From a virus: DNA of 42,789 bases. The notes beneath the pieces were generated by a model. The model had not been told where the DNA came from. It worked only from the letters and a program-made list of their open reading frames with translations, and did not search any database. The stretch lies in IMG/VR virus record IMGVR_UViG_3300032288_002660, positions 1-42,789 of that record, one strand, 5' to 3'. Below are positions 1-42,277 of the stretch, piece after piece. The position numbers and the translations under genes are program-made. The first letter of the stretch is position 1. Every line of letters starts with the position of its first letter.

Positions 1-1319
1 ACCTTGATGTCCACTGCAGGTTGATTATCTTCTGCTGTTGAGAACACCTGTGACTGTTTAGTTGGAATAGTTGTATTCTTCTGAATCAACTTGGCCATTA
101 CACCGCCCATTGTTTCAATACCTAGGCTCAATGGAGTAACGTCTAGCAATAGAACATCTTTGCGATCTCCACCTAGAACAGCACCTTGTACTGCGGCACC
201 TGCGGCAACTGCTTCGTCTGGGTTAACATCTTTACGTGGTGCTTTGCCAAACAGTTTCTCTACAGTTTCCTGTACCTTAGGCATGCGTGTCATACCACCA
301 ACTAGGATAACTTCGTCGATGTCGTCTTTGGTTACTTTTGCATCCTTCATGGCAGTCTGGCAAGGGCCAACCGAACGTTGGATCAGCTCTTCAACTAATT
401 GCTCTAGTTTACTGCGTGTGAGTTTGACATTGAGATGTTTTGGACCACTAGCATCAGCAGTGATGTAAGGCAAGTTCACATCTGTTTGGCTTGAACTTGA
501 CAATTCGATCTTTGCTTTTTCAGCGGAATCTTTTAGACGTTGTAAAGCTAGTACGTCTTTGCTTAGATCAATGCCTGCATCTTTCTTGAACTCATCAATT
601 AGATGATCCATGATGCGTTGGTCAAAGTCTTCACCGCCTAGGAATGTATCGCCGTTGGTTGACAATACTTCAATTTGCTTCTCGCCGTCGATGTTGGCAA
701 TTTCGATAATGCTTACATCAAATGTACCACCACCTAGATCATAGACAGCAACTTTGCGGTCTTTTTTATCTTCTTTGTCAACACCGTATGCAAGAGCAGC
801 CGCTGTTGGCTCGTTGATAATTCGCAGAACTTCTAAGCCAGCAATCTTACCAGCGTCTTTGGTTGCTTGGCGTTGACTGTCGTTGAAGTACGCAGGCACG
901 GTGATGACTGCTTGGGTAACTTCTGTGCCCAAATAGTCCTCTGCGGTTTTCTTCATCTTGCGAAGAACTTCTGCTGAAATCTGTGGTGGAGCTAAATCTT
1001 TGTTATTTGCTCGAACCCAAGCATCTCCATTGTCAGCTTCAACAATAGAATATGGCATCAAGTCGATGTCTTTTTGCACAGCTTCTTCTTTGAACTTGCG
1101 TCCAATTAATCGCTTGGCTGCGTAGATTGTATTTTTTGGATTTGTTACTGCTTGACGCTTTGCAGTTGCACCGACTAGAATTTCGGAATCGGTATAAGCA
1201 ACAATACTAGGAGTAGTACGAGCGCCTTCTGAATTTTCAATTACTTTGGCTTTGCCGTTTTCAATAACAGCTACACATGAGTTTGTGGTACCTAAATCGA
1301 TACCGATGATCTTAGACAT
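1..1319 (-). CDS. dnaK: Molecular chaperone DnaK (Hsp70), C-terminus beyond the window
   Basis: ATP-driven Hsp70 chaperone of the cytoplasm. I translated about 439 residues from the start at 1319. They hold the complete nucleotide-binding domain: [10 protein letters not shown] near residue 5 (phosphate 1), [12 protein letters not shown] near 191 (phosphate 2), [11 protein letters not shown] near 336 (adenosine motif), then the interdomain linker [10 protein letters not shown] near 392 and the first strands of the substrate-binding domain. The rest lies left of position 1. A strong AAGGAGA ribosome site sits 6 nt before the ATG. The reading frame is intact and very close to ordinary bacterial DnaK, which suggests recent acquisition from a bacterium. 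DnaK is unusual in a phage, but the neighbours downstream in the same direction (bS21, phage membrane proteins) look viral. No dnaJ or grpE is visible in the window. Confidence 0.95.
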
Positions 1320-2019: not shown

Positions 2020-3042
2020 TTATTTTAAAAATACATCATTAATCTGTCTATTGACTTTGATGAATGTTGTACACTTCGATAATTGTTTTAAAGATGGTGC
2101 GCCTACATAAGTGCAGGTACTGCGTAATCCACCTAGTATATCTAGAATGGTTTTGGCAACAGCACCTTTGTAGGGGATTTCTACAGTTCTACCTTCTGAG
2201 CTTCTATAGTCAGCAACACCGCCGCTGTGTTTATCCATGGCAGTATCTGAACTCATACCGTAGAATGTTACTTTGTCGTCTTTGACTTCGCCGCCGCCCT
2301 CGTCGTGACCGGCGAGCATGCCTCCGAGCATTACGAAGTCAGCACCCGCACCAAAAGCCTTCGCAATATCTCCAGGACAAGTACATCCGCCATCAGCAAT
2401 AATGTGGCCACCAAGACCGTGGGCAGCGTCGGCGCATTCAATGATTGCGCTAAGTTGTGGATATCCCACACCAGTCTGAATCCTAGTAGTGCAAACGCTA
2501 CCAGGCCCAATGCCAACTTTAACAATATCTGCTCCTCGTAAAATAAGTTCCTGCGTCATGTCTGCGGTAACAACGTTACCAGCAATAATAGTGTGTGTAG
2601 GAAACTCTGCTCTTACTTTGGCTACGAAATCTCCAAAATACTCGCTGTAACCGTTGGCCACGTCAATACAGATAAACTTAGAATCAGTGCCGGTTACAAT
2701 AACTTTTAGTCGATCAAAATCACTGTCGCTGATACCTGTACTAACAGCATAAAAATCTCTTTCGGTGCCTCTCTGAAAGCCAAGCCATTGGTCTACATTT
2801 TTGTTATAGGTTTTTACAAGACAGGTAAACAAATGATGTTTCTGTAATTCCTTGGCCATTTCAAATGTGCCAACACCATCCATGTTACTTGCCATAATAG
2901 GAATACCTGTGTATTCCTTTTTGCTGTGTTTGAACTTGTATGTTCGATGTAGGTCTACTTCTTTACGACTTGATAAAGTAGAACGTTTTGGGCGAATCAG
3001 CACATCTTTGAAGTCTAGTTTGACTTCGTCTTCGATACGCAT
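2020..3042 (-). CDS. guaC: GMP reductase (IMPDH/GMPR family)
   Basis: 340 aa, near the length of E. coli GuaC (347 aa). GMP reductase converts GMP to IMP and ammonia with NADPH, returning guanine nucleotides to the purine branch point. The catalytic loop is plain: [11 protein letters not shown] near residue 178 with the active-site Cys, followed by [19 protein letters not shown] and [29 protein letters not shown]. There is no CBS insertion, and the ADAAHG segment is typical of GMP reductase rather than IMP dehydrogenase. A weak AAAGG site precedes the start. It lies directly downstream of the bS21 gene (12 nt gap). A role in reshaping nucleotide pools with the phage NrdAB is inference. Confidence 0.92.
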
Positions 3043-8117: not shown

Positions 8118-8516
8118 TCACTTAGATTGGGTAGCTAACTCTTTATAACCTGCGGTACTAGGATGTACGCCATCTTTTTGTAGACGTGTAATTGGCAAAA
8201 CCACATCGCCGAACTCGCCTGCAACTTTTATAACGGTTTCTTGGATATTGGGTTTGATGGCCGGCAAGATCCAATAAACTCGATCTGCTTTGGTTAATGA
8301 CCTGATGGTACGTAATTCACTTTCTGTTTTAACATACTTGTGATCATTGCTACCCAAACTGATAATAACTGTTTTGGCAACATAAGGGCTCTTACCAACG
8401 TTTGAGTTCAACCATTGATAACTGTTGATGCCGCCTTTAGAATATGAAACACACTCTTGTCGCACTTGGGCAGTGCCTACTGCAATACTGTCACCCATAA
8501 TTAAACAATCTAACAT
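8118..8516 (-). CDS. SGNH/GDSL-family hydrolase
   Basis: 132 aa from the ATG at 8516, chosen because GGAGG lies 4 nt before it; an earlier in-frame ATG has no ribosome site. Block I is MGDSIAVG with the nucleophile Ser near residue 9, block III is ISLGSNDHK near residue 50, and block V is KDGVHPSTAGY with the catalytic Asp and His near residues 116-119. The domain is short (usual length about 180-200) but has all catalytic blocks. The family removes acyl or acetyl groups from carbohydrates or lipids. No signal peptide is seen, so it may act in the cytoplasm or on the virion. Confidence 0.85.
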   Translation of the reverse strand: MLDCLIMGDSIAVGTAQVRQECVSYSKGGINSYQWLNSNVGKSPYVAKTVIISLGSNDHKYVKTESELRTIRSLTKADRVYWILPAIKPNIQETVIKVAGEFGDVVLPITRLQKDGVHPSTAGYKELATQSK

Positions 8517-8547
8517 TATTCCTCCAAAAATTTCAATCATAAAACAC

Positions 8548-8576
8548 ATTGTAGCATCGTTTGAAATTCAAGTCAA
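8548..8576 (-). promoter_or_regulatory. Sigma70-like promoter of the SGNH hydrolase gene
   Basis: Minus strand TTGACT (8571-8576), 17-nt spacer, TACAAT (8548-8553); the start codon follows 31 nt downstream after GGAGG. It lies just past the terminator of the pqqA-like gene. Confidence 0.75.
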
Positions 8577-8581
8577 GAGAA

Positions 8582-8599
8582 AGCCCACCGAAGTGGGCT
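8582..8599 (-). terminator. Terminator of the pqqA-like gene
   Basis: AGCCCAC and GTGGGCT form a 7-bp stem around a TTCG tetraloop, followed on the minus strand by TTTCTCTT. Confidence 0.75.
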
Positions 8600-8608
8600 A
8601 GGTCTTTA

Positions 8609-8680
8609 TTATCGATTCATCACGTACATAGTGACTTCGAATCCGTAACGCATTTCAACTGCTTCTGGTTTTGTCCACAT
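8609..8680 (-). CDS. pqqA: PqqA-like PQQ precursor peptide
   Basis: A 23-codon gene whose product begins MWTKPEAVEMRYGFEVTMY and ends VMNR. Length, the MWTKP start, the G-F-E-V-T-M-Y core and the final N-R match PqqA, the ribosomal peptide from which pyrroloquinoline quinone is made. Glu15 and Tyr19, the two residues that PqqE and later enzymes join into the cofactor, are both present and correctly spaced. An AAGGAG ribosome site lies about 9 nt before the ATG. It has its own TATAAT box, palindrome and terminator, so it is a complete single-gene unit. No pqqB, C, D or E gene is visible in the window, so the peptide would have to be processed by host enzymes; this is inference. Confidence 0.9.
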   Translation of the reverse strand: MWTKPEAVEMRYGFEVTMYVMNR

Positions 8681-8701
8681 AATAGTACTCCTTTATAAAA
8701 A

Positions 8702-8724
8702 ATACATACTGCATTAGTATGTAT
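8702..8724. promoter_or_regulatory. Perfect 9-bp palindrome in the pqqA leader (likely operator)
   Basis: ATACATACT (8702-8710), spacer GCATT, AGTATGTAT (8716-8724). The palindrome lies 5 nt after the -10 box, so it overlaps the expected transcription start and the untranslated leader of pqqA. It could bind a repressor, or form a hairpin in the mRNA. It also lies 58 nt before the divergent plus-strand oxygenase gene and could serve both. Confidence 0.6.
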
Positions 8725-8728
8725 CGTT

Positions 8729-8757
8729 ATTATATGACAAAATCCCCACAAATACCA
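8729..8757 (-). promoter_or_regulatory. Promoter of the pqqA-like gene
   Basis: A perfect TATAAT (8729-8734 on the minus strand) but a poor -35 hexamer (TGGTAT at 8752-8757, 17-nt spacer). A weak -35 with a palindrome at the start site suggests a regulated promoter. Confidence 0.5.
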
Positions 8758-8782: not shown

Positions 8783-9535
8783 GTGTTAGTACTGCCTTTT
8801 CTAGACTGTAAATACTTGATGAATCGACATAATATAGAATATTTGGCTAATGCTTTCCAAAATGCAAATCCTTTTCCGTTCATTGAAATAGATAACTTCT
8901 TGCCAGAGTCAACAGCAACGGAGTTGAATGAAGAATGTCAAACAATTGAACAACAACACTGGACTGAATTTACTAGAAATAACAGTTACATGCAAGAATG
9001 TAAAAATCTAGAAGTTGCACCACAGGCACGAAAGCTGGTAGAAAAATTACACAGTTCAGAAACATTATCATGGTTAGAGCAACTGTCGGGAATACAAGGA
9101 ATTATTCCCGATCCGCATCTCGTTGGTGCAGGTTATAGCCGAAGTTTCACTGAAGATTCTTTAAAGGTTCATGTAGACTTTAACTGGAACGATCGTCTCA
9201 AACTGCATAGGGTGCTGTCTTTAGTCGTTTATCTCACGCCAAATTGGAATAATGATTGGGGTGGTGCGTTGGACTTATACGATGAGAATAAAGATGCTTG
9301 TGTACACTCAATAAAATATAAGTTTAATAAATGTGTTATATGGAGATACAGTCCAGTAGGTTATCATGGATATAATTCTCCGCTAACATGTCCGCAGGGA
9401 GTATCACGAAATGCATTTAGATTATTCTATTATGTAAGCAGTGCAGAACCTAGCTTAACCGATCCTCCGCATAGGAGTCTTTATTGGCATAATAAAGAAA
9501 CGAATAAACCTTATGACATACGGACAGAGAAATGA
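8783..9535 (+). CDS. 2-oxoglutarate/Fe(II)-dependent oxygenase (prolyl-4-hydroxylase type)
   Basis: 250 aa from a GTG at 8783, which has AAGGAG just upstream (spacing short, 3 nt); the alternative ATG at 8819 has no ribosome site. The double-stranded beta-helix motif is visible: iron ligands HVD in LKVHVDFNW near residue 132, a later His in VGYHGYN near residue 194, and the 2-oxoglutarate-binding Arg in SRNAFRLFYY near residue 211. LSLVVYLTPNWNNDWGGALDLY is typical of the family. The substrate is unknown. It opens a two-gene plus-strand unit with a glycosyltransferase-like gene (4-nt overlap). Both are clearly more AT-rich than their neighbours, which suggests a separate origin. Confidence 0.85.
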   Translation: MLVLPFLDCKYLMNRHNIEYLANAFQNANPFPFIEIDNFLPESTATELNEECQTIEQQHWTEFTRNNSYMQECKNLEVAPQARKLVEKLHSSETLSWLEQLSGIQGIIPDPHLVGAGYSRSFTEDSLKVHVDFNWNDRLKLHRVLSLVVYLTPNWNNDWGGALDLYDENKDACVHSIKYKFNKCVIWRYSPVGYHGYNSPLTCPQGVSRNAFRLFYYVSSAEPSLTDPPHRSLYWHNKETNKPYDIRTEK

Positions 9536-10759: not shown

Positions 10760-11266
10760 TTAACTGTTTAAAACTTTAGACACACTGTTCATAACACTGG
10801 CAATACGTCCAATGTCACGAAGCTGTTCCACAGTATAGCCTTCTGTCTTCAATGTCTCGTAATGTGCTTTCACACAGAAGTGACATTTGCCAACAATACT
10901 AGCTGCCAAACTAAATGCTTCAAAGTTTGACTTAGTAGTTCCGCCATGATTAGCAATAGCGTTCATGCGTAACTGTGCCGGTAGGCCTTTGAGTCCAGGA
11001 TCATCAGCCATTTCAACATATGGATACCAAACATTGTTCTGTGCCATAATGCTTGCGGCTGTCATAGCAGCATCTGCGTGAACAGGTGCGTCTGCTAGCA
11101 TAACAGCGAGTACTTTACCGTTGCCAGTTGCGGCCAATGCGGCTACGGCACAACCCATCGCCACATCAGGATCCAATGTGCTACGCAAAAGGACAGCGTC
11201 CAAGTTTAACTTGGTGTCCTTTGCGTATTCTGGCAACGCTTCTTTGATAGCGTCATTGAATGCCAT
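10760..11266 (-). CDS. ahpD: Alkylhydroperoxidase AhpD (carboxymuconolactone decarboxylase family)
   Basis: 168 aa. The active site GKCHFCVKAHYETL (about residues 127-140) carries the CxxC pair and the following His, preceded by an NFEAF segment with the conserved Glu. The N-terminus ALPEYAKDTKLNL is like that of mycobacterial AhpD. AhpD is a disulfide reductase that recycles AhpC and has weak peroxidase activity. The ATG overlaps the ahpC stop by one base (TAATG), so the two are coupled. Confidence 0.93.
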   Translation of the reverse strand: MAFNDAIKEALPEYAKDTKLNLDAVLLRSTLDPDVAMGCAVAALAATGNGKVLAVMLADAPVHADAAMTAASIMAQNNVWYPYVEMADDPGLKGLPAQLRMNAIANHGGTTKSNFEAFSLAASIVGKCHFCVKAHYETLKTEGYTVEQLRDIGRIASVMNSVSKVLNS

Positions 11267-11823
11267 TATAGTGTTTCTCCGCCAACTGTGCGATTACATG
11301 CACATAGTTCGCCAGTTTGTAATGCGTCAAGAACACGCAATGTTTCTTCTGGTGAGCGACCAACGTTCAAGTTGTTTACAGTAACGTGTTGGATAACGTT
11401 GTCTGGATCAACGATGAATGTTGCGCGAAGTGCGGCACCTGCTGGCGCATAGAATACACCAAGTTGTTCAATCAAACTTAGATTATGTCCAGTATTATCG
11501 TTCCAACGCTGTGTGTCTGCAAATTGATTATGCGTAATCTTTTGTAGATCCGGATGTGCCTTTTGCCATGCCACTTTACAGAACTCGTTGTCTGTGCTGC
11601 CTGTGAGCAAGATTGCATCACGGTCAGCAAAGTCACTGGCTAGTTTGTCATAGGCTACGATTTCTGTAGGACAAACAAATGTAAAGTCCTTTGGATAGTA
11701 AACGATTACTTTCCACTTGCCTTCAAATGACTTTTCAGTAATGTCAAAGAAAGCATCTTCTGGTTGTCCAGGCTTGACACCTGTGATTACAAACGGTTCT
11801 AATTTATCGCCAACTGTTTTCAT
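11266..11823 (-). CDS. ahpC: Peroxiredoxin AhpC, AhpD-dependent type
   Basis: 185 aa cytoplasmic thiol peroxidase reducing H2O2 and organic hydroperoxides. The peroxidatic Cys lies in DFTFVCPTE (Cys51). The C-terminus GELCACNR carries two Cys (174 and 176), an arrangement known from Mycobacterium AhpC, which is reduced by AhpD rather than AhpF; the ahpD gene follows directly. GKWKVIVYYPKDF and FIVDPDNVIQ are typical family segments. An AAGGAG ribosome site precedes the ATG and a sigma70-like promoter lies at 11877-11906. Confidence 0.95.
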   Translation of the reverse strand: MKTVGDKLEPFVITGVKPGQPEDAFFDITEKSFEGKWKVIVYYPKDFTFVCPTEIVAYDKLASDFADRDAILLTGSTDNEFCKVAWQKAHPDLQKITHNQFADTQRWNDNTGHNLSLIEQLGVFYAPAGAALRATFIVDPDNVIQHVTVNNLNVGRSPEETLRVLDALQTGELCACNRTVGGETL

Positions 11824-12000: not shown

Positions 12001-12561
12001 TTAGAAACGACGGATGTATCCAACTTTGGTGATGTTCTGTTCGCTGTCACCACGTTGACGATCATAACCAACATAGACTGTGTCTGATTTGGTTAGGTCG
12101 TAACCTAACTTGCTACGCCATGTGCGTGTAGTGTCGTTCTTGTTGTCAGCAAATGCATCTTGGAAACGATATCCAACGCTTAATGCTAGACCTGGAACAA
12201 CTGTGATTGGAGCAACCACACCTGGCTCAACTGAGTAGTAGCTGAATCCACCTGAACCGCTAACATACTTTTCACCAACTGCTACACGAGTGTAAGCAGA
12301 AACTGGACCAACTGGAACTGCACCTGTTAGACCTGCTTCATAACGAGTAGACAAAATGTCAGTGTTATCAGTGCGGTAATTTTTGACTACGATATCACCG
12401 GCAAAGTTTTTAGTGATGGATTCTTTGATACCCAATTCGTAAACTCTTTGATCTGCGGTAGTACCAACGCCGTTGGCGTTTTGAGCTTCTAAACGAACTT
12501 CAGCTGCGGTTGCAGTTAATGTTGCTAGAGCTAAAATAGTCGCTAATGTAATTTTCTTCAT
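12001..12561 (-). CDS. Small outer-membrane beta-barrel (porin-like) protein
   Basis: 186 aa. A clear signal peptide (MKKITLATILALATLTATAA) is followed by about eight alternating amphipathic strands (VRLEAQNANG, RVYELGIKE, AGDIVVKNYRT, TRYEAGLTG, VSAYTRVAVG, LALSVGYRFQD, WRSKLGYDLT, TVYVGYDRQ, ITKVGYIRRF). The protein ends in Phe, the usual barrel-assembly signal. It is a short barrel, like OmpX/OmpA-size proteins. It has a strong promoter and terminator of its own. A role in masking receptors or blocking superinfection is possible but not shown. It could also be a host-derived porin fragment that still folds. Confidence 0.8.
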   Translation of the reverse strand: MKKITLATILALATLTATAAEVRLEAQNANGVGTTADQRVYELGIKESITKNFAGDIVVKNYRTDNTDILSTRYEAGLTGAVPVGPVSAYTRVAVGEKYVSGSGGFSYYSVEPGVVAPITVVPGLALSVGYRFQDAFADNKNDTTRTWRSKLGYDLTKSDTVYVGYDRQRGDSEQNITKVGYIRRF

Positions 12562-12659: not shown

Positions 12660-12818
12660 GGTATTTTCTGTTACGAGGTATTTCCTACCCTAAGCAGTGT
12701 TTAGGCTGCTAATGCGTATTCGCTTGAATTTGCGTTTACTTGTTTTGCTTGATTTACGGTCATCGCCTACCGTGTTGCCGTCTCTACTATCTACCCCTGT
12801 CGAAACCATGGCAGGCCC
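12660..12818 (-). ncRNA. ssrA: Two-piece tmRNA, coding piece
   Basis: tmRNA rescues stalled ribosomes by acting as tRNA-Ala and then as mRNA for a degradation tag. This piece begins with the 5' acceptor strand GGGCCTG (12818-12812) and the conserved D-arm GGTTTCGACAGG. A hairpin ACGGT/ACCGT stands just before the tag reading frame. The tag stop lies inside a CCTAA/TTAGG hairpin (helix 5). GGGCCTG pairs over all 7 bp with CAGGTCC of the acceptor piece at 13079-13085, and the third pair is G-U, the identity element for alanyl-tRNA synthetase. The 3' end is an estimate: the RNA probably ends before the terminator stem. Confidence 0.93.
12701..12748 (-). other. tmRNA tag reading frame
   Basis: Fifteen codons and a TAA encode AKQVNANSSEYALAA inside the tmRNA coding piece. 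The first codon is GCA, the usual Ala resume codon, and the tag ends in ALAA, the ClpXP/ClpAP degron. It is longer than the common 10-11 residue proteobacterial tag, and its middle (QVNANSSE) differs from the usual ANDENYALAA type. Confidence 0.93.
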
Positions 12819-12830
12819 ATCATAAGAAAA

Positions 12831-12938
12831 TTACACATCTTTTTTGTGATGCGGTTTAATATTGAGATTGTATAGATAACTGACACAACATATTGATAAG
12901 ATTATCATCACCGCGCCAAATACTATTACCTTTATCAT
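12831..12938 (-). CDS. Membrane micro-protein inside the tmRNA intervening segment (second)
   Basis: 35 aa, starting MIKVIVFGAVMIILSICC and ending in a basic tail (KPHHKKDV). One membrane helix spans about residues 4-24. AAGGAG lies 9 nt before the ATG, and the upstream micro-ORF stops 12 nt before. The gene sits between the acceptor and coding pieces of the permuted tmRNA, in RNA that is removed when the tmRNA matures. No family recognised. Confidence 0.6.
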   Translation of the reverse strand: MIKVIVFGAVMIILSICCVSYLYNLNIKPHHKKDV

Positions 12939-12950
12939 TTTACAAACTCC

Positions 12951-13061
12951 TTACCACAACTGGCACTGTTTTAATTTTTCAATATCCTGAGCTTTGTCCC
13001 GTGTAATATAAAATACACCAAACACTATCCAGAACACTAAAAATAAAACATAGCCAATCAT
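12951..13061 (-). CDS. Membrane micro-protein inside the tmRNA intervening segment (first)
   Basis: 36 aa, starting MIGYVLFLVFWIVFGVFYIT (membrane helix), then a charged tail RDKAQDIEKLKQCQLW. AAGGA lies 8 nt before the ATG, only 3 nt after the CCA end of the tmRNA acceptor piece. With the next micro-ORF it fills nearly the whole 256-nt intervening segment. The layout (helix, then amphipathic tail) is like small membrane regulators or toxins, but I recognise no family. Confidence 0.6.
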   Translation of the reverse strand: MIGYVLFLVFWIVFGVFYITRDKAQDIEKLKQCQLW

Positions 13062-13074
13062 AATAATTTCCTTA

Positions 13075-13140
13075 TGGTGGACCTGGCGGGAGTCGAACCC
13101 GCGTCCAGAAGTCCTTCGCTTTGAAGGGATTACAACAATT
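13075..13140 (-). ncRNA. ssrA: Two-piece tmRNA, acceptor piece
   Basis: Read on the minus strand it holds a CCTTC/GAAGG hairpin, the near-invariant GGACGCGGGTTCGACTCCCG T-arm (13087-13106), the 3' acceptor strand CAGGTCC, then A and an encoded CCA (13077-13075). It lies upstream of the coding piece, so the gene is circularly permuted as in the alpha-proteobacterial, some beta-proteobacterial and cyanobacterial tmRNAs. It begins within a few bases of the stop codon of the cold-shock gene and probably shares its transcript. The exact 5' end is not determined. Confidence 0.93.
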
Positions 13141-13422: not shown

Positions 13423-13708
13423 CCTCTTTTGATTCTTTTTGGACTAATTTATCTGGACGGATAGGTTCTAGCCATGTGTCTGGTATGTATGCTTTAGGTG
13501 TGTCACCGTACATGTTGCTCAATCCAAATTCCGTACTGATCCACCAAAAATGATCTGTGATCTGTGCTTTACATGCGACACCTCGAAAATCAAATTCTTC
13601 GCCTGCTTTGAAGTGTCCGATATATTTTTCTACTAATACTGTTTTTCCTATATTGCTAGGACGTAGACTCATTATAATTTTTGCAAGATCGCCTTGTTCA
13701 CATTTCAT
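13406..13708 (-). CDS. Small hypothetical protein after the radical SAM gene
   Basis: 100 aa from the ATG at 13708, which has AAGGAAG upstream and overlaps the end of the radical SAM gene by 11 nt. The sequence is strand-rich (GKTVLVEKYIGHF, EEFDFRGVACKAQITDHFWWIST) with an Arg/Trp-rich middle, as in a small beta-barrel. No family recognised. Coupling to the radical SAM gene suggests a shared role; no PqqD-like motif is visible. Confidence 0.65.
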   Translation of the reverse strand: MKCEQGDLAKIIMSLRPSNIGKTVLVEKYIGHFKAGEEFDFRGVACKAQITDHFWWISTEFGLSNMYGDTPKAYIPDTWLEPIRPDKLVQKESKEVDISA

Positions 13709-14807
13709 AATTTTCTTCCTTTGCTGATAAACTTTGATACAGGTCTGGAATAACTCGGGCAAGATCTGTTTTCATAGCAGCATCTTGATCTTGTAAAAAT
13801 TTTAATAATTTACTAGGATCCCTAGGAGATTCGCTATTCAATGCATTTTCAAGATCTGTATCTAATAATTGTTTAGCCCTTAATTGCATAACATAATTCT
13901 CCGGCAGACTGTGTATAGACAGCTCTGTGGGATATTTAAGTAGATCATAGTAGAAATCGATGCCGTTGTCTTTGGCCCACTGTTTAATCATTACGAACTG
14001 ATGTAAATTCAAAGCCTGCAATGTATGTGAAACTGTAAGATGTATATTGCTATGAGATTTTGCCAATTCTAACCATTTTTCAACTACCTTACTTACTTTG
14101 TTCCAGGGTTGACCAGTGCGTATATAATCGCATAAGTCGTCAAATCCATCGATGCTCAATGATACTACTAGCATATTAAATTTCACTAGATCGGAAATTA
14201 TCTCTTTTGGAAATACTGTGCAATTTGTACTAGTAGACAAATTTACATTTTCTATAGAAGTTTTCTTTTTTATTTCGTTGATCATTTCACTTAGATGATT
14301 TCCAATAAAAGGTTCACCGCCTTGGAGCTTAATGAATTTTATATTTGAAAAATCAATAGTTGCTAACACTTCGAGTATGGTACGATTTGCATGATTGACT
14401 GGCTGATAATAATGATACTTTGTTAATGAGATATTCTTTTCTATTAATCGTTCCCAGCGGCTGCTGGCCTGTGGTCCACACATCTTGCAGGTTAAATTAC
14501 ATTCATTATCGAAACTGATGTCAATGTATTCTAACTTATCAGGATCTCCGCTGAGATCCCTATTCATATTCATCCTAGGACTTAGCTTCCCAGCTTCTTC
14601 ATCTATTCTACATCCGCTGCAATTAGGATGCCAACCAGTCTCCATTTGTTGTTGGACATCTCTGTAAAAGTCACTGTTTTTGTATTCATTCCATTCGAGA
14701 TGTCCAACGTTGACAACTTCCTGTGTTCTTTGGAAGGAACAACAGGGTCGAAATCGACTATCAGTATCTAGGCAAAGGTGATTATGCAGGGCATTACATT
14801 GAGGCAT
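13698..14807 (-). CDS. Radical SAM protein with N-terminal twitch domain
   Basis: 369 aa. The cluster motif CNLTCKMC (CxxxCxxC, near residue 103) binds the 4Fe-4S cluster that cleaves S-adenosylmethionine. KLQGGEPF near residue 162 is the GGE motif. Before it, residues 1-70 hold HLCLDTDSRFRPCCSF and CSGC, Cys that probably bind an auxiliary cluster, as in the twitch-type radical SAM proteins common in marine T4-like phages. The substrate is unknown. It is followed by a small strand-rich protein and preceded by a 2OG-Fe(II) oxygenase, which suggests a peptide- or protein-modifying cassette. Confidence 0.9.
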   Translation of the reverse strand: MPQCNALHNHLCLDTDSRFRPCCSFQRTQEVVNVGHLEWNEYKNSDFYRDVQQQMETGWHPNCSGCRIDEEAGKLSPRMNMNRDLSGDPDKLEYIDISFDNECNLTCKMCGPQASSRWERLIEKNISLTKYHYYQPVNHANRTILEVLATIDFSNIKFIKLQGGEPFIGNHLSEMINEIKKKTSIENVNLSTSTNCTVFPKEIISDLVKFNMLVVSLSIDGFDDLCDYIRTGQPWNKVSKVVEKWLELAKSHSNIHLTVSHTLQALNLHQFVMIKQWAKDNGIDFYYDLLKYPTELSIHSLPENYVMQLRAKQLLDTDLENALNSESPRDPSKLLKFLQDQDAAMKTDLARVIPDLYQSLSAKEENYEM

Positions 14808-33673: not shown

Positions 33674-34801
33674 TTAATCTGGTGCTCTTTCGAAACTGTA
33701 GTCAGCTTCAGATGAATCTGGATATCTTGTTAAAACTTTTTGTATTACGTCTTGCTTGCTTTCGCCCTGTATACGTGCTGAACGTCCACTGGCTATCTGT
33801 GTTACAATGTAAGTACCTGGTGTAGAATCTGGATCTTGTTCATCTTCTGGTTCATCTTTTTCCACTGCTGATGCATATGATAAGGGTGCTTTCTTTTTAA
33901 TATCAGCAACTGCGGCTGCTACATCATATCCGCCTCTTGCGATATCTTTGCTGGCTTCTTTGATTTCATCTGCATGAGCTGTCATGCTATCTGCAATTTT
34001 CTTCATCAAGCCAGGAAATAGTTCTGCAAAGCGTTCGTCATTGCGGGGCATGTTGCCGCGATTGTCTTGATTGCCGTTTTGCAATTGATTTGTAGGCAAG
34101 TGCATTTGCCACTTGCCGTCTTTGGTATCTGGATTTTCTTTGTCAAATATTGAAACAATAGGACCGTCTGGGGCATAGTTGTTGAACCATGATAGTCCTG
34201 AGCTAGATCCTGTACAAAAGTTTGCCTGATAACCATTTGAATTGTTAAATGTATAACAAGCACCGTAGTTAAAAGGTATAACAACTAGGAATCGTTCGTC
34301 ATCAACTAATGTAACTTCTTTCTTTTCACGTTTGTGTTTTTCAATTACTTCAGCGTCTTTGATTTTACGTAGTTCATCACGATAAGTGCTATCGCGAACC
34401 AGCTGTTGGATCTGTCTTAGGCTTTTGAATTTGTTAAAATCTTGATGTGGTTCTTTTAGTTTTCCACGAATGCTTAGTGCTTTCCAAGCACCTAGTGCAT
34501 CACCGCCTTCTCCGTTGATATCTTCGTAGTCTGCTTGTCCGTTGATATACAAGCGTGTTAACCATTCATCAAATTTACCATCTTGTGATAAATCACCGTA
34601 ATCTGTTGAGCGCAATGAGTTATCTAACATTTCACTCCATAGGGCTAGAATACTTTGATCGTCGGGTTTGGGACCTAGTTTAGCAATTGAATGTTTAGGC
34701 AAGGAACCATCATGGCGCATGGCGATACCTAACATCTTGATAGTCTTAGGATCTTTAATTTTAGAAGCAACGTTGGCTTCGAATATCTGTTTTAATCTCA
34801 T
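33674..34801 (-). CDS. Large hypothetical phage protein with Cys/Gly-rich core
   Basis: 375 aa. The N-terminus MRLKQIFEANVASKI again has the M-R-x-x-x-x-F/x-E pattern. The conserved-looking centre (about residues 165-250) reads VVIPFNYGACYTF, NFCTGSSSGLSWFNNY and DGPIVSIFDKENPDTKDGKWQMHL in pieces, a pattern I associate with an unnamed family widespread in large phages. The C-terminal 75 residues form a small alpha-beta unit. Function unknown. Confidence 0.7.
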   Translation of the reverse strand: MRLKQIFEANVASKIKDPKTIKMLGIAMRHDGSLPKHSIAKLGPKPDDQSILALWSEMLDNSLRSTDYGDLSQDGKFDEWLTRLYINGQADYEDINGEGGDALGAWKALSIRGKLKEPHQDFNKFKSLRQIQQLVRDSTYRDELRKIKDAEVIEKHKREKKEVTLVDDERFLVVIPFNYGACYTFNNSNGYQANFCTGSSSGLSWFNNYAPDGPIVSIFDKENPDTKDGKWQMHLPTNQLQNGNQDNRGNMPRNDERFAELFPGLMKKIADSMTAHADEIKEASKDIARGGYDVAAAVADIKKKAPLSYASAVEKDEPEDEQDPDSTPGTYIVTQIASGRSARIQGESKQDVIQKVLTRYPDSSEADYSFERAPD

Positions 34802-35676
34802 CCTGAAATCATTGACCTTTTAAAGAATGAAAGAATAGTTCCTAACTTAGCAGTATCGCCTTCTGATATATCTTTTAACAACTGCTTGGGCCCTTCTTCG
34901 AATTGTGATGAATAGCTACGGCTATAACTTTTTGTGATGTTGCCTGTTTGTTCTGGATAGTAGTGACTGGCTGTCATGAGTATAGCTGTCTGTACCGCTG
35001 TACCGATAAATCCAGGAACATCTCCGCTACCGGATTCAATGGCTTCTAATCCCTGCTGTAGATTTTCTATATGATTTAGTTTTGATTTTGCTTTTTCAAA
35101 AGCATCATTTTTAATCTGATTAGCAACGTGTCCTTTGATGTCTGCGATCGCTGCTGTTATGGCTTTGGCCCAAAGAGGTTTGAATTTTCTAACTAATGTT
35201 TCTTGTGAAATCACATTAGGTCCTGCGCCTGCCTGATTGCTGGCACGTTTCTTTTGTTTGTCGCTGACAGCGGTAGTATTCTTACCTACATAAAACTTAC
35301 GTAGTCCGCCAATTTCACCTTTGAGGAAATCAATAACATTACCACCTCTGCTGTCTTTGACTGTGCGAGGTTCGCCGCCTGTGCTGGCTACCGCAAGATA
35401 TGTTCCAGTATTTCCACCCGAAGCTTTGATAGCACCGGTTCCGCGATCTCCTTGGATAATGACCCAAGCACCTCTATAACTGTCTTTTAAATCACTCCAA
35501 GAAATCTTTGGTACAGCACTGTAATTGATGTCGTGTGCTAGTTTTTCGTCTCGGTGTAGTTTTTGTATAACTTCCTTGCCACCTGGTTTCTGTTGGATAA
35601 TATCCATAGAGCTACTGGCTTCTGGCAAGTAGCTTTCGCAGAATTGAGCAAATAATCGTAGTGTTTCTGGGCGCAT
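34798..35676 (-). CDS. Hypothetical phage protein, 292 aa
   Basis: Starts MRPETLRLFAQFCESYLPEA; helical at both ends with a central strand region (RGAWVIIQGDRGTGAIKASGGNTGTYLAV in parts, residues 68-97). The last 80 residues include a hydrophobic helix (FIGTAVQTAILMTASHYY). The stop overlaps the next start by 4 nt. An AATAAATA element lies 6 nt before the ATG, with no ribosome site between. Family not recognised. Confidence 0.65.
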   Translation of the reverse strand: MRPETLRLFAQFCESYLPEASSSMDIIQQKPGGKEVIQKLHRDEKLAHDINYSAVPKISWSDLKDSYRGAWVIIQGDRGTGAIKASGGNTGTYLAVASTGGEPRTVKDSRGGNVIDFLKGEIGGLRKFYVGKNTTAVSDKQKKRASNQAGAGPNVISQETLVRKFKPLWAKAITAAIADIKGHVANQIKNDAFEKAKSKLNHIENLQQGLEAIESGSGDVPGFIGTAVQTAILMTASHYYPEQTGNITKSYSRSYSSQFEEGPKQLLKDISEGDTAKLGTILSFFKRSMISG

Positions 35677-35684
35677 AAGTGTAT

Positions 35685-36455
35685 TTATTTTAAACTAGAC
35701 CATTCGGCTAGATTTGGAGGAGTGTCTTCTAAGACTTTCTTTTGTTGTGCTGTTAGTTGTGGCATGAAATTAATGCCAGTGTACTGTTCGATCGAGCCCA
35801 CACTGGTAGCATACTTAGGCAAGTCGGCAACAGGTAACGGAGCATTAGGGAATAAGAATGCGATTGATTTAGAATTTTTACGATCTACGATAACCTTCCA
35901 CATGTGCGTAGGAATACCTACACGATTTGCACCTATGGTTTGATAACCGGGCGCATATACAGTTCCGGATATAACATAGATATCTTTGCCCTCTGATACC
36001 CAATTACGTACTGCTGTTTCTAACTGTTTCCAAATACCACGATTGTGATTTGGAACTTGTGGAACCATATTTGACAAGAAGAAGCTTTCGCTCATGATTT
36101 CATCGTTGATGGTATTATCTGCACCCGGACTTAGATGTCCCCTATCAAAAGGAAATCCAGCATAATCTGATAGCTGTGATTGGTGTTGTTTAGGTATAGA
36201 TGGGTCTGGTCTAAAATCGTCTTTTCTTTTTGCAGGTCCAGAAATAGACTGCGGTGTAACGTGTTGCACCACATACTCTGCTGTCTTGGTATCGTATCTA
36301 TAGTGTATGGCATAGTTCTGTTTACAAAGATACTGCGTGTTTGCTGTAATAGGGCTTACAGGCGCACCACGCAGTACGTGTTGGGGACATTGGTCGTCGA
36401 TGGGATTTGCTAGAGCAGCAAAAGGAATTAATAATAATAGTAGCAGTTTACGCAT
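35685..36455 (-). CDS. Secreted DNA/RNA non-specific endonuclease (NUC1-like)
   Basis: 256 aa. A signal peptide (MRKLLLLLLIPFAALA) precedes the beta-beta-alpha-metal nuclease domain: FDRGHLSPGADN near residue 103 (DRGH, catalytic His) and FFLSNMVPQVPNHNRGIWKQLE near residue 127 (metal-binding Asn). YVISGTVY and AFLFPNAPLP are typical. It should cut DNA and RNA in the periplasm or outside the cell. A phage enzyme of this type could degrade competing incoming DNA or salvage nucleotides. Confidence 0.93.
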   Translation of the reverse strand: MRKLLLLLLIPFAALANPIDDQCPQHVLRGAPVSPITANTQYLCKQNYAIHYRYDTKTAEYVVQHVTPQSISGPAKRKDDFRPDPSIPKQHQSQLSDYAGFPFDRGHLSPGADNTINDEIMSESFFLSNMVPQVPNHNRGIWKQLETAVRNWVSEGKDIYVISGTVYAPGYQTIGANRVGIPTHMWKVIVDRKNSKSIAFLFPNAPLPVADLPKYATSVGSIEQYTGINFMPQLTAQQKKVLEDTPPNLAEWSSLK

Positions 36456-39556: not shown

Positions 39557-42277
39557 TTATCCAAATGTTACCATCTGTCCAAGCACTGTGTAAGTACTGG
39601 CGCCGGTTTGTAATACGCTGTAGCCCACTGCTTCTGTCTTGCTGGCAGTAGGTGTTGGTGCTGTACCACCCTGCCAAGTCACTGATACTGCTGTTCCGTT
39701 GATTGAAACTGCGCTAGGAATGAACGGAGTTGAGCCTTCTACAATGACCATTGTGATGTTGGTTGCTTGTCCTGTTGTAATCTGTACGTTAGTAAACAAT
39801 GCTGTCCAGGCTGATGCTGGACCACCTGAAGGATTGACTAACCATATGTTACCACCTGTGCAGTTAAATGTAATATTTGGTGATCCTGATATTGCTGTCG
39901 AATAAGTTTGATACGGTTCGATAAATTGTCCACTAACAGTAACGTTAGTAAACGTTGGCGAACCACCGCCTGCTGTAACTGTAACACTCTTGGCTGTATT
40001 ATCTGTTGTAAGTGTGATACCTGTACCAGCTACTAACGTCAATGTTGCAGTATTACTTGCGGCTGTTACACTTGTTTGTCCACTAACTGCCACAGTCTTA
40101 AATATGTTCTGTGCGCTACCTGTATCAGTGTTTGTAATAGTAACTGCTGTTGATCCGTTATAACTTGTGCCACCTAATCCTGTTCCAATAGTCAATGCGT
40201 TGGTTGCTGTAGCTGTGATTGTTCCGCTGCCGCCTAGGCTGATACTAGTTCCATTAACTGTGACGCTGCTGTTAGTTAATTGATTGTTAGCAATACCACT
40301 TAGTGATCCTCCTAGTGTAATAGTGCCAGAACTTGTAATAGTTCCCCCAGTTAAGGTAATACCATTTACGCTACCACTTGTGGCAATGCTGGTTACAGTG
40401 CCAGTGTTACTTGTATATCCATTTGGATTACTTGAACTGTAAGGTGTGTAACCCAGTGCTGTTGTGACTTGTAAACTCGTGATACTGGTTAAGTAACTGC
40501 TGAGATCTGGCGGTGTGTATTTGAATACGCCGTTGGTATTGTTGTAACTGATAGCGCCACTGCCGCTAGCTGCGTTAGGCACACCAACACTAAAGTCTGT
40601 ATAACTTAATCCACCGCCGCTGCCGCCTGTTTGATCACTGCCGTTATACCATTTGCTGGTACTACTATCGTACTTTAACACCTGTCCATTGCTTGGTGTA
40701 CCTACCAAAGCCACGTCTGTGAGATTTGATAGTGCCACACTGGTTAGATAACCGCTGAGGTTTGGTCCAGCGATAGTAATATATCCCTCACTGTCCGAAC
40801 TAACACTGACTCCGCTTGAGCCTATAAACTTTATTAATTCACCATTACTGATTGTTCTCTGTGTTGAATCATCTCCAGCCACGCTGAATGTAAATGGATT
40901 TTCTATATAAGAAGTAGCACCTGGATCACCTTTTGGTCCTGTGGAACCTATTAAACTTGTTAGCCATTGCGCTTCTGTTCCAACAAATCCGTTTGCCACG
41001 GCTAGTTCATAGGCACTGGCTCCATTTGTTCCGTTAGTTCCATCTGCACCATCTGCACCTATTAAACTTGTTAGCCATTGCGCTTCTGTTCCAACAAATC
41101 CGTTTGCCACGGCTAGTTCATAGGCACTGGCTCCGTTAGTTCCGTTAGTTCCGTTAGCGCCGGCTGGACCTACAATATTGCCAACATCATCCCACATTGT
41201 GCCGTCGTAGACCCATAGGTGTCCGTCGTCTTGAGCAATAACACCATTACCGATAACTGCGCTAGGAAATGCTGTGTCTAAAACTACCTGGGGATCATCA
41301 GGAGGGATACTATGAACGTTGGCTACTGAACCAATGATACTAACACTAGTTCCATCTGCTCCGTTGGTTCCTGCTGTACCAACCAAACTTGTTAACCACT
41401 GGGCTTCAGAACCAACGAATCCATTGGATACGGCAACTTCATAAGCACTTAGTCCGTCAGCCCCATCAGCCCCATCAGCACCTGCTGTGCCAACTAAACT
41501 CGATAGCCATGCCTCTTCGCCACCAACAAATCCATTAGCTACAGCAACTTCATAAGCACTTAGTCCGTCAGCGCCATCAGCTCCGTTATTACCAGTATCA
41601 CCTTTAGGTCCTGGGATTAATAAATTAAATTCTGTCCAACCATATCCGGCATCTGGTGTTGGGCTTTGAAGATAGCCACTAGGGTCACTTAGAATCCAAA
41701 ATGATCCTCCATATGATACAACATCATTAGGGTTATAGGCAGAGAGATTAGTCCAAACAAATGGAGTTCCTTGTTGGTATGCTGTTGGTCCGGTATTTCC
41801 AATATCTCCAGTGTCACCTTTGGGTCCTGTATCTCCGGAGTCTCCTTTGGGTCCTTGTACTAGTGTGATAGACTCTGATACCCAGCCTGTCGTATCAGGA
41901 CGAGCAATGTTTAATTTTAAAGGATCAGCATCTTTAACAAATGCCCAATAATTGTCTGGAGGTGTAGGAAAGGCTGAGGTTAAATCTCCGGCTGTGTTAA
42001 AAGTTCCTATGAACTCTGAGTTTAATCCGGTGTCGCCTGTGTCTCCTTTAGGTCCTGGGATACCTCCACTGATAACACCATCAGTTATCGTAATAGTAGT
42101 ACCATCGATCTTAACACCACCTAACACAGTAGTTGATGCTGTGGGCAGAGTATAAGCAGCCTGTGCCACTTCACTGCCTATCCATTTTTCGCCGTCATAG
42201 ACATAGAGTTGACCGTTAGGGGCAACATAACTGTCACCGCTCTGCGGAGGTGGACTATTGGGGAAATCTAATGCCAT
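39557..42277 (-). CDS. Long tail fibre with collagen-like repeats
   Basis: 906 aa. The start (PPPQSGDSYVAPNGQLYVYDGEKWIG) is the usual phage fibre head. Residues 70-200 and 300-480 hold collagen-like Gly-x-y runs (GPKGDTGDTG, GPKGDSGDTGPKGDTGD, GADGADG, GTNGTNG). Four copies of a unit of the form SAYEVAVANGFVGxExxWLxSL occur between them; these helix-forming units alternate with collagen triplets. The C-terminal 430 residues are Ser/Thr/Gly-rich beta repeats (SGSVNGITLTGGTI, NALTIGTGLGGTSYNG) ending in a compact domain. It should form a trimer and carry the receptor-binding tip. Confidence 0.93.
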   Translation of the reverse strand: MALDFPNSPPPQSGDSYVAPNGQLYVYDGEKWIGSEVAQAAYTLPTASTTVLGGVKIDGTTITITDGVISGGIPGPKGDTGDTGLNSEFIGTFNTAGDLTSAFPTPPDNYWAFVKDADPLKLNIARPDTTGWVSESITLVQGPKGDSGDTGPKGDTGDIGNTGPTAYQQGTPFVWTNLSAYNPNDVVSYGGSFWILSDPSGYLQSPTPDAGYGWTEFNLLIPGPKGDTGNNGADGADGLSAYEVAVANGFVGGEEAWLSSLVGTAGADGADGADGLSAYEVAVSNGFVGSEAQWLTSLVGTAGTNGADGTSVSIIGSVANVHSIPPDDPQVVLDTAFPSAVIGNGVIAQDDGHLWVYDGTMWDDVGNIVGPAGANGTNGTNGASAYELAVANGFVGTEAQWLTSLIGADGADGTNGTNGASAYELAVANGFVGTEAQWLTSLIGSTGPKGDPGATSYIENPFTFSVAGDDSTQRTISNGELIKFIGSSGVSVSSDSEGYITIAGPNLSGYLTSVALSNLTDVALVGTPSNGQVLKYDSSTSKWYNGSDQTGGSGGGLSYTDFSVGVPNAASGSGAISYNNTNGVFKYTPPDLSSYLTSITSLQVTTALGYTPYSSSNPNGYTSNTGTVTSIATSGSVNGITLTGGTITSSGTITLGGSLSGIANNQLTNSSVTVNGTSISLGGSGTITATATNALTIGTGLGGTSYNGSTAVTITNTDTGSAQNIFKTVAVSGQTSVTAASNTATLTLVAGTGITLTTDNTAKSVTVTAGGGSPTFTNVTVSGQFIEPYQTYSTAISGSPNITFNCTGGNIWLVNPSGGPASAWTALFTNVQITTGQATNITMVIVEGSTPFIPSAVSINGTAVSVTWQGGTAPTPTASKTEAVGYSVLQTGASTYTVLGQMVTFG
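40946..41023. repeat. 78-bp perfect direct repeat in the fibre gene, copy 1
   Basis: Identical to 41057-41134, offset 111 bp (37 codons). It encodes one SAYELAVANGFVG-type unit. Two more diverged units lie near 41380-41450 and 41490-41560. Confidence 0.95.
41057..41134. repeat. 78-bp perfect direct repeat in the fibre gene, copy 2
   Basis: Identical at all 78 positions to 40946-41023. The offset is a multiple of three, so gain or loss of a unit keeps the frame. Confidence 0.95.

Follow-up and report, generated by a model that had tools for sequence, protein, structure and literature searches.

Why a phage should carry a gene for PqqA, the precursor peptide of PQQ, is the question raised by a short open reading frame of 23 codons, beginning with ATG, at positions 8609-8680 (minus strand) of the window, i.e. 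the whole stretch of 42 789 nucleotides analysed here. In PQQ synthesis, PqqA alone is consumed stoichiometrically, one peptide for each cofactor molecule made: PqqD/PqqE cross-link a Glu and a Tyr residue of the peptide, peptidases free the fragment, and PqqB and PqqC finish the cofactor, hydrogen peroxide being released in the PqqC reaction. The product of the reading frame, MWTKPEAVEMRYGFEVTMYVMNR, is a true PqqA. It covers the whole profile of the Pfam family PF08042 with 35.9 bits (E 7.1e-9; curated cut-off 21.1) and matches TIGR02107, the NCBI equivalog model of the PQQ precursor, with 34.9 bits (E 1e-8; cut-off 20), the chance expectation of such a match being about 2e-6 for the approximately 320 ATG-initiated reading frames of at least 20 residues in the window. 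The original prediction had described a 23-residue PqqA-like product with Glu15 and Tyr19, which translation confirms (the two residues form the E-x-x-x-Y pattern), and had proposed an alignment with PqqA families, in which both curated cut-offs are now exceeded. From these features, binding to PqqD and cross-linking by PqqE are predicted for the window peptide.

The window is phage-like in content, with tail-fibre and virion-protein families, endolysin families and a class Ia ribonucleotide reductase. It encodes no homologue of pqqB-E, as had been claimed from its reading frames and as a homologue search now confirms; since the window is a fragment, in which the dnaK frame runs off the left end, absence from it is not the same as absence from the phage. 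Queries that recover the host operon found no pqqB-E in the complete genomes of MEP301 and MEP401 or in the 222 viral loci listed, and no PqqE over cut-off in 18 long pqqA-bearing contigs of up to 364 kb. A methanol dehydrogenase is encoded in just one of these 18 contigs. The contig in question (IMGVR_UViG_3300025120_009955, 72 kb) has, like the Baikal phages, both genes: a methanol/ethanol dehydrogenase gene at 34049-35731 (TIGR03075, 608 bits) and, approximately 6 kb away, pqqA near 41923.

How far such isolation is peculiar to phages can be judged from the family Methylophilaceae, in which PqqA is found in 120 of 120 genomes, in 1-12 copies (median 4) and with at least two copies in 113 of them; in the class sample, PqqA is present in 28 of 185 genomes, with a median of two copies, the reference genome apart. 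The arrangement pqqABCDE, with pqqB-E adjoining pqqA, is found neither at the viral loci nor for most host copies, which are mostly distant from pqqBCDE. In the OM43-type strain LSUCC0665, where pqqBCDE are present, none of the three pqqA copies lies within 110 kb of pqqE, and in Methylotenera mobilis 13 two of the twelve copies adjoin pqqE. In the latter genome, this RiPP precursor gene is strongly amplified, its twelve copies being scattered on one chromosome. Thus, the original prediction was right in calling the window pqqA an 'orphan', in so far as no pqqB-E accompany it there, but this is not unusual for the gene, because the host copies themselves lie mostly far from pqqBCDE. Host copies are also small units with a ribosome site and a terminator.

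In the window, pqqA likewise has the appearance of a short unit transcribed on its own, being equipped with a ribosome site, a -10 box and a terminator and followed by a further promoter-like site. The ribosome binding site AAGGAG (8688-8693, minus strand), 7 nt before the ATG, is kept in related phage leaders. The promoter has a TATAAT -10-like box (8729-8734, minus strand), without a good -35, some 50 nt upstream of the gene; it is kept across the phages of the window lineage, and the 23-nt block around it has one match in the window where none is expected. Approximately 10 nt after the stop codon is an intrinsic terminator (8582-8599, minus strand) with a 7-bp stem, a TTCG loop and a T-rich tail; the stretch 8570-8612 has a folding energy of -15.9 kcal/mol (z -4.7), and similar hairpins are also found 3' of host and other phage pqqA copies. 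Beyond the terminator, TTGACT-17-TACAAT (8576-8548) is promoter-like and placed for the next gene. A frequent neighbour of pqqA, a GDSL-like hydrolase with weak PF00657/PF13472 matches below cut-off, is encoded at 8118-8549 (minus strand). Downstream of the -10 box and upstream of the ribosome site, the leader contains an inverted repeat, GATACATACT-AATGC-AGTATGTATT (8701-8725, minus strand), a probable 5' RNA hairpin with a fold of -8.9 kcal/mol (z -1.8), which is found in most related leaders with a variable loop length. Four other leader types of the same phage group are unrelated in sequence and nonetheless have a hairpin at the same place. As pair-by-pair covariation within the window's leader type does not reach significance for the hairpin, an RNA role is put forward as a suggestion; a DNA operator is a possible alternative, disfavoured by the variable length of the loop.

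A tblastn search of 50 697 phage records gave 12 PqqA matches, namely nine Methylophilales phage genomes, one cave-spring contig and two 'Acinetobacter phage' records. The last two were dropped, the record inspected ('Acinetobacter phage MD-2021a') being chromosomal, with pqqBCDE beside pqqA; PqqA of Acinetobacter and of the Methylobacterium type, used as queries, revealed no further phages in the phage records. The nine genomes (MEP301, MEP401, MEP402, Venkman, P19250A and four Melnitz strains, six phages in all) are all those of Methylophilales phages found among the 50 697 records, so that the PqqA frame is present in nine of nine, a count that excludes the further isolates listed in the taxonomy (MEP431-434, HIM624-A, also written HIMB624-A, and Venkman EXVC038S). 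The peptide is annotated in none of the nine, and in some another 'hypothetical protein' is annotated across this place; indeed, in the published isolates inspected pqqA was missed because it is too small for the usual gene callers. That complete isolates (MEP301, MEP401/402, Venkman, P19250A and Melnitz) carry pqqA establishes it as a gene of phages and not of misbinned host DNA.

The isolates come from several unrelated phage lineages. The terminase of MEP401/402 (Zobellviridae) shares 55-56% identity with that of Vibrio phage ICP2, and the terminase of MEP301 shares 42% with that of Pelagibacter phage Hodr; Melnitz is T4-like and is listed in its record under Kyanoviridae. The genes adjoining pqqA are different in every isolate. 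The terminase relatives with other hosts (the Vibrio ICP2 group and Pelagibacter Hodr) are not among the PqqA matches. Three degenerate-DNA pattern scans of IMG/VR gave at least 222 contigs with a pqqA frame, a small number of which may derive from hosts or prophages, although none has pqqB-E nearby. On comparison of the neighbourhoods, one group of 106 loci (five isolate/spring phages included) and one of 83 (the window included) were obtained, the remainder forming nine smaller groups and ten singletons. Six viral contigs (L012, L021, L026, L032, L066 and L115) have PqqA of other types and are perhaps phages of other PQQ-making hosts.

If the phage peptides serve as PqqE substrates, the residues to be cross-linked should be retained, and their retention was measured with patterns that stop before both of them. 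The scan that fixes residues only up to Arg11 gave, among the matches listed, 120 frames out of 120 with 23 residues, Glu15 and Tyr19. The window peptide is of the PEAVEMRY type, and a complete scan of IMG/VR for PEAVEMR[FY] gave 76 viral contigs, with Glu15 and Tyr19 in 74 of 74 full-length frames and variation at positions 16, 20 and 21; the two contigs without a full frame are one cut at the stretch end (L295) and one whose frame is lost after Gly13 (L340). Loss of Glu15 or Tyr19 in related phages, which the original prediction had named as evidence against itself, was thus seen in no full-length frame of either set. For pqqA of the window lineage (34 haplotypes), pN/pS is 0.08 over codons 2-23 and 0.095 over codons 13-23, with synonymous sites close to saturation. 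The retained Glu and Tyr residues and the low pN/pS therefore indicate that the peptide is kept for its function.

The PEAVEMR type is found in 0 of 187 Methylophilaceae genomes and also occurs in MEP401/402, which were grown on an OM43 strain; among the genomes searched, it is a phage-only form. At positions 6, 8, 12 and 23 it departs from host PqqA, and such a difference, together with its restriction to phages, might be expected of a decoy or inhibitor, i.e. of a peptide that occupies PqqD/PqqE unconverted and stops host periplasmic oxidation, as the original prediction had considered. An inhibitor, however, could lose one of the cross-linked residues, and both are kept in every full-length frame listed. 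Furthermore, many phages encode an exact host peptide, necessarily an equal substrate: 60 of 219 viral PqqA peptides among the matches listed are identical to a host peptide, and that of P19250A is the commonest host PqqA peptide. Because of these identities, we consider the decoy highly unlikely. The gene could instead be a passenger, namely a stand-alone host cassette captured by chance and of no benefit to the phage. Capture would indeed be easy, since the host copies are many, dispersed and self-contained; yet a passenger is hard to reconcile with saturated synonymous change at a pN/pS of approximately 0.08-0.10, with a phage-only lineage in 76 contigs and with the presence of pqqA, at different genomic places, in every Methylophilales phage genome found, so that this explanation, too, is given little credence.

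All named hosts of phages with a pqqA frame are Methylophilales. Outside phages, the motif EMR[FY]GFEVTMY appears to be almost restricted to Methylophilaceae among the matches listed: one-per-species bacterial genomes contain it at at least 120 loci and, by record title, the matches listed comprise 94 from Methylophilaceae/Methylophilales, 25 from unresolved bacterial bins (mostly beta-/gammaproteobacterial) and one labelled Rhodocyclaceae. The type of its peptide points to a methylotroph as the probable host of the window phage, in keeping with the PQQ-making methylotroph that the original prediction had proposed. A host devoid of PQQ synthesis genes, which the same prediction had regarded as incompatible with its reading, is not what the family offers, PqqE being over cut-off in 112 of 120 Methylophilaceae genomes; for the window itself, this applies to a host deduced from the peptide. 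Two other proteins were tried as host indicators. DnaK, whose frame (3-1319, minus strand) has an open 3' end, is 77-80% identical to Methylophilaceae DnaK and equally close to the protein of many Gammaproteobacteria, and is therefore non-discriminating; an AhpD-like protein was of no use, being absent from 80 Methylophilaceae genomes.

The AhpD-like protein belongs to the conserved surroundings of pqqA. In the window lineage, genes for AhpC-like and AhpD-like proteins usually precede pqqA on its own strand and are often no more than 160 bp away. In the window, these are an AhpC-like peroxiredoxin with an FVCPTE motif (11266-11823, minus strand; PF00578, TIGR03137 below cut-off) and an AhpD-like CxxC protein (10760-11266, minus strand; PF02627, TIGR00777 below cut-off). 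Homologues of AhpD are found in 31 of the 222 viral loci listed, 29 of these of the PEAVEMR type, and those of AhpC also in 31 loci, 27 of the PEAVEMR type. No match to the AhpD-like protein is found among the 50 697 phage records, and 11 of the 185 class-sample genomes encode a homologue. Such linkage could mean that an AhpC-AhpD-pqqA cassette works as a peroxide-linked module, in which the peroxidases would remove the H2O2 formed by PqqC or by methanol oxidation. The common strand, the preponderance of the PEAVEMR type and the distance of at most 160 bp between AhpD and pqqA in 15 loci are in its favour, as is the release of H2O2 by PqqC, which is established biochemistry; on the other hand, other pqqA phages, MEP301 among them, have no annotated AhpC/AhpD pair, and the linkage could simply reflect a shared accessory region. 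That the pair serves the peroxide side of the PQQ pathway is, thus, a suggestion drawn from gene order, and we hold it to be rather improbable as the explanation of the locus. It adds to a role of phage PqqA as a supplied precursor and does not exclude it.

In the window, a 2OG-Fe(II) oxygenase (8783-9535) and a protein of 393 residues are encoded between the AhpC/AhpD pair and pqqA; the latter has one distant match among the other viral pqqA loci and the former none. The window also encodes a radical SAM protein (13698-14807, minus strand) of the N_Twi_rSAM subfamily (212.9 bits, cut-off 170). The oxygenase and the radical SAM protein, both near pqqA and weakly similar to peptide-maturation families (YhhB/YhhC models), might constitute a modification system of the phage itself, making from PqqA a new peptide and not PQQ. 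The pairing is, however, peculiar to the window, because neither gene has a homologue in the 222 other viral pqqA loci listed; moreover, PqqE is not among the best 25 matches of the radical SAM protein. As a PqqA-modifying system the two were rejected for want of conservation, and this reading is extremely improbable.

Other features of the region may be recorded. A permuted two-piece tmRNA (12701-13137, minus strand) is recognized with 135 bits by Rfam RF04321 and with the tag ANSSEYALAA by ARAGORN; phage tmRNAs of the permuted type have been reported for Melnitz (PMC9004378). A porin-like protein (12001-12561, minus strand), just below the PF13609 cut-off, has homologues in 11 related loci, and a protein of the IMP dehydrogenase/GMP reductase family (PF00478, 234 bits) is encoded at 2020-3042 (minus strand).

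Taken together, the gene, its family, the purifying selection acting on it, the link with phages of methylotrophs and a host-family PQQ pathway with amplified stand-alone pqqA copies are observed. Quite probably, then, phage pqqA is a working auxiliary metabolic gene that provides the substrate which PQQ synthesis consumes and from which the host PqqB-E make the cofactor of methanol dehydrogenase. The proposal of the original prediction that the phage feeds precursor into the host pathway is therefore the best-supported reading, its expectations on hosts, PqqE and Glu15/Tyr19 having held, while expression during infection, modification by PqqE, a gain in PQQ and a benefit to the phage are what we infer. 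A separate short phage transcript would be translated into PqqA, in which host PqqD/PqqE would join Glu15 to Tyr19; host peptidases and PqqB/PqqC would complete the cofactor, and PQQ would be loaded into host methanol dehydrogenase, whether freshly made or already present. Methanol oxidation, from which these methylotrophs chiefly draw their energy, could thereby go on after host gene expression falls. If the phage cuts off host transcription, stable host enzymes may suffice, whereas a short-lived peptide would run out. The phage would need the precursor only, because the enzymes are catalytic and already there and the peptide pool must be renewed, an argument that is also consistent with the amplified stand-alone pqqA of the host. 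There are counterpoints. Enzymes recycle PQQ, and it can also be taken up from outside, so that extra synthesis within a lytic cycle might matter little; neither DnaK nor the AhpD-like protein of the window points specifically to a Methylophilaceae host; processing of the PEAVEMR type, found in no host genome searched, by host PqqE is a prediction from sequence; and methanol dehydrogenase is, as described above, rare in the long pqqA-bearing contigs. More tentatively, and with less than even confidence, supply of a RiPP precursor may be near-universal in Methylophilaceae phages and have been gained repeatedly by unrelated lineages, with an AhpC-AhpD-pqqA module in the window lineage that would both feed PQQ synthesis and clear the peroxide of its last step.

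In the Lake Baikal methylophage population VP_266, PqqA has been described next to methanol dehydrogenase, with a proposed boost to methanol oxidation, and P19250A was said to have none of these genes (PMC7678222). The latter statement fails for PqqA, because P19250A carries an unannotated PqqA frame (KX815270, 28085-28153). The papers on MEP401/402, Venkman and Melnitz mention no phage PqqA, PQQ appearing only as a component of the growth medium, at 1 nM in that published for OM43 (PMC9004378), where it could hide an effect of a phage-supplied precursor. With respect to the open-access literature, it appears to be new that all the methylophages checked carry pqqA, that the gene is found in several unrelated lineages, that one form of it is restricted to phages and that it is usually without any other PQQ gene, and also that it lies unannotated in cultured isolates, one of which was said to lack such genes. 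Surveys of viral metabolic genes probably undercount pqqA, and for uncultured viruses the PqqA peptide type can serve to indicate the host. The results suggest that the supply of PQQ precursor is a bottleneck exploited by phages in methylotrophs, consumers of methanol in seas and lakes, and amplification of stand-alone pqqA in the host lends independent support to the importance of PqqA dose in Methylophilaceae. Which component of a host pathway a phage must bring is a question that can be tested in cultured OM43 and LD28 phage-host pairs.

With the PqqA family as defined by PF08042 and TIGR02107, the window peptide shares its length, the MWT.P start and the R-x-G-F-E-x-T-M-Y core; it differs from the usual PqqA in being encoded by a phage, alone, and in a PEAVEMR[FY] form that is absent from 187 Methylophilaceae genomes. 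Host stand-alone pqqA copies are, similarly to those of phages, self-contained units of ribosome binding site, pqqA and terminator far from pqqBCDE, and several of the peptides are identical, but the host copies are chromosomal and none in the 187 genomes is of the PEAVEMR type. VP_266, a predicted Methylophilaceae phage, also encodes PqqA; there, however, a single metagenomic population has pqqA beside methanol dehydrogenase, whereas here the gene is found in all the isolate lineages checked, usually without that enzyme. The closest parallel in logic is psbA of cyanophages, coding for the photosystem D1 protein, in that the phage brings only the fast-consumed part of an energy pathway of its host; psbA, however, encodes a protein subunit, whereas phage pqqA encodes a one-use RiPP precursor with a predicted role in infection.
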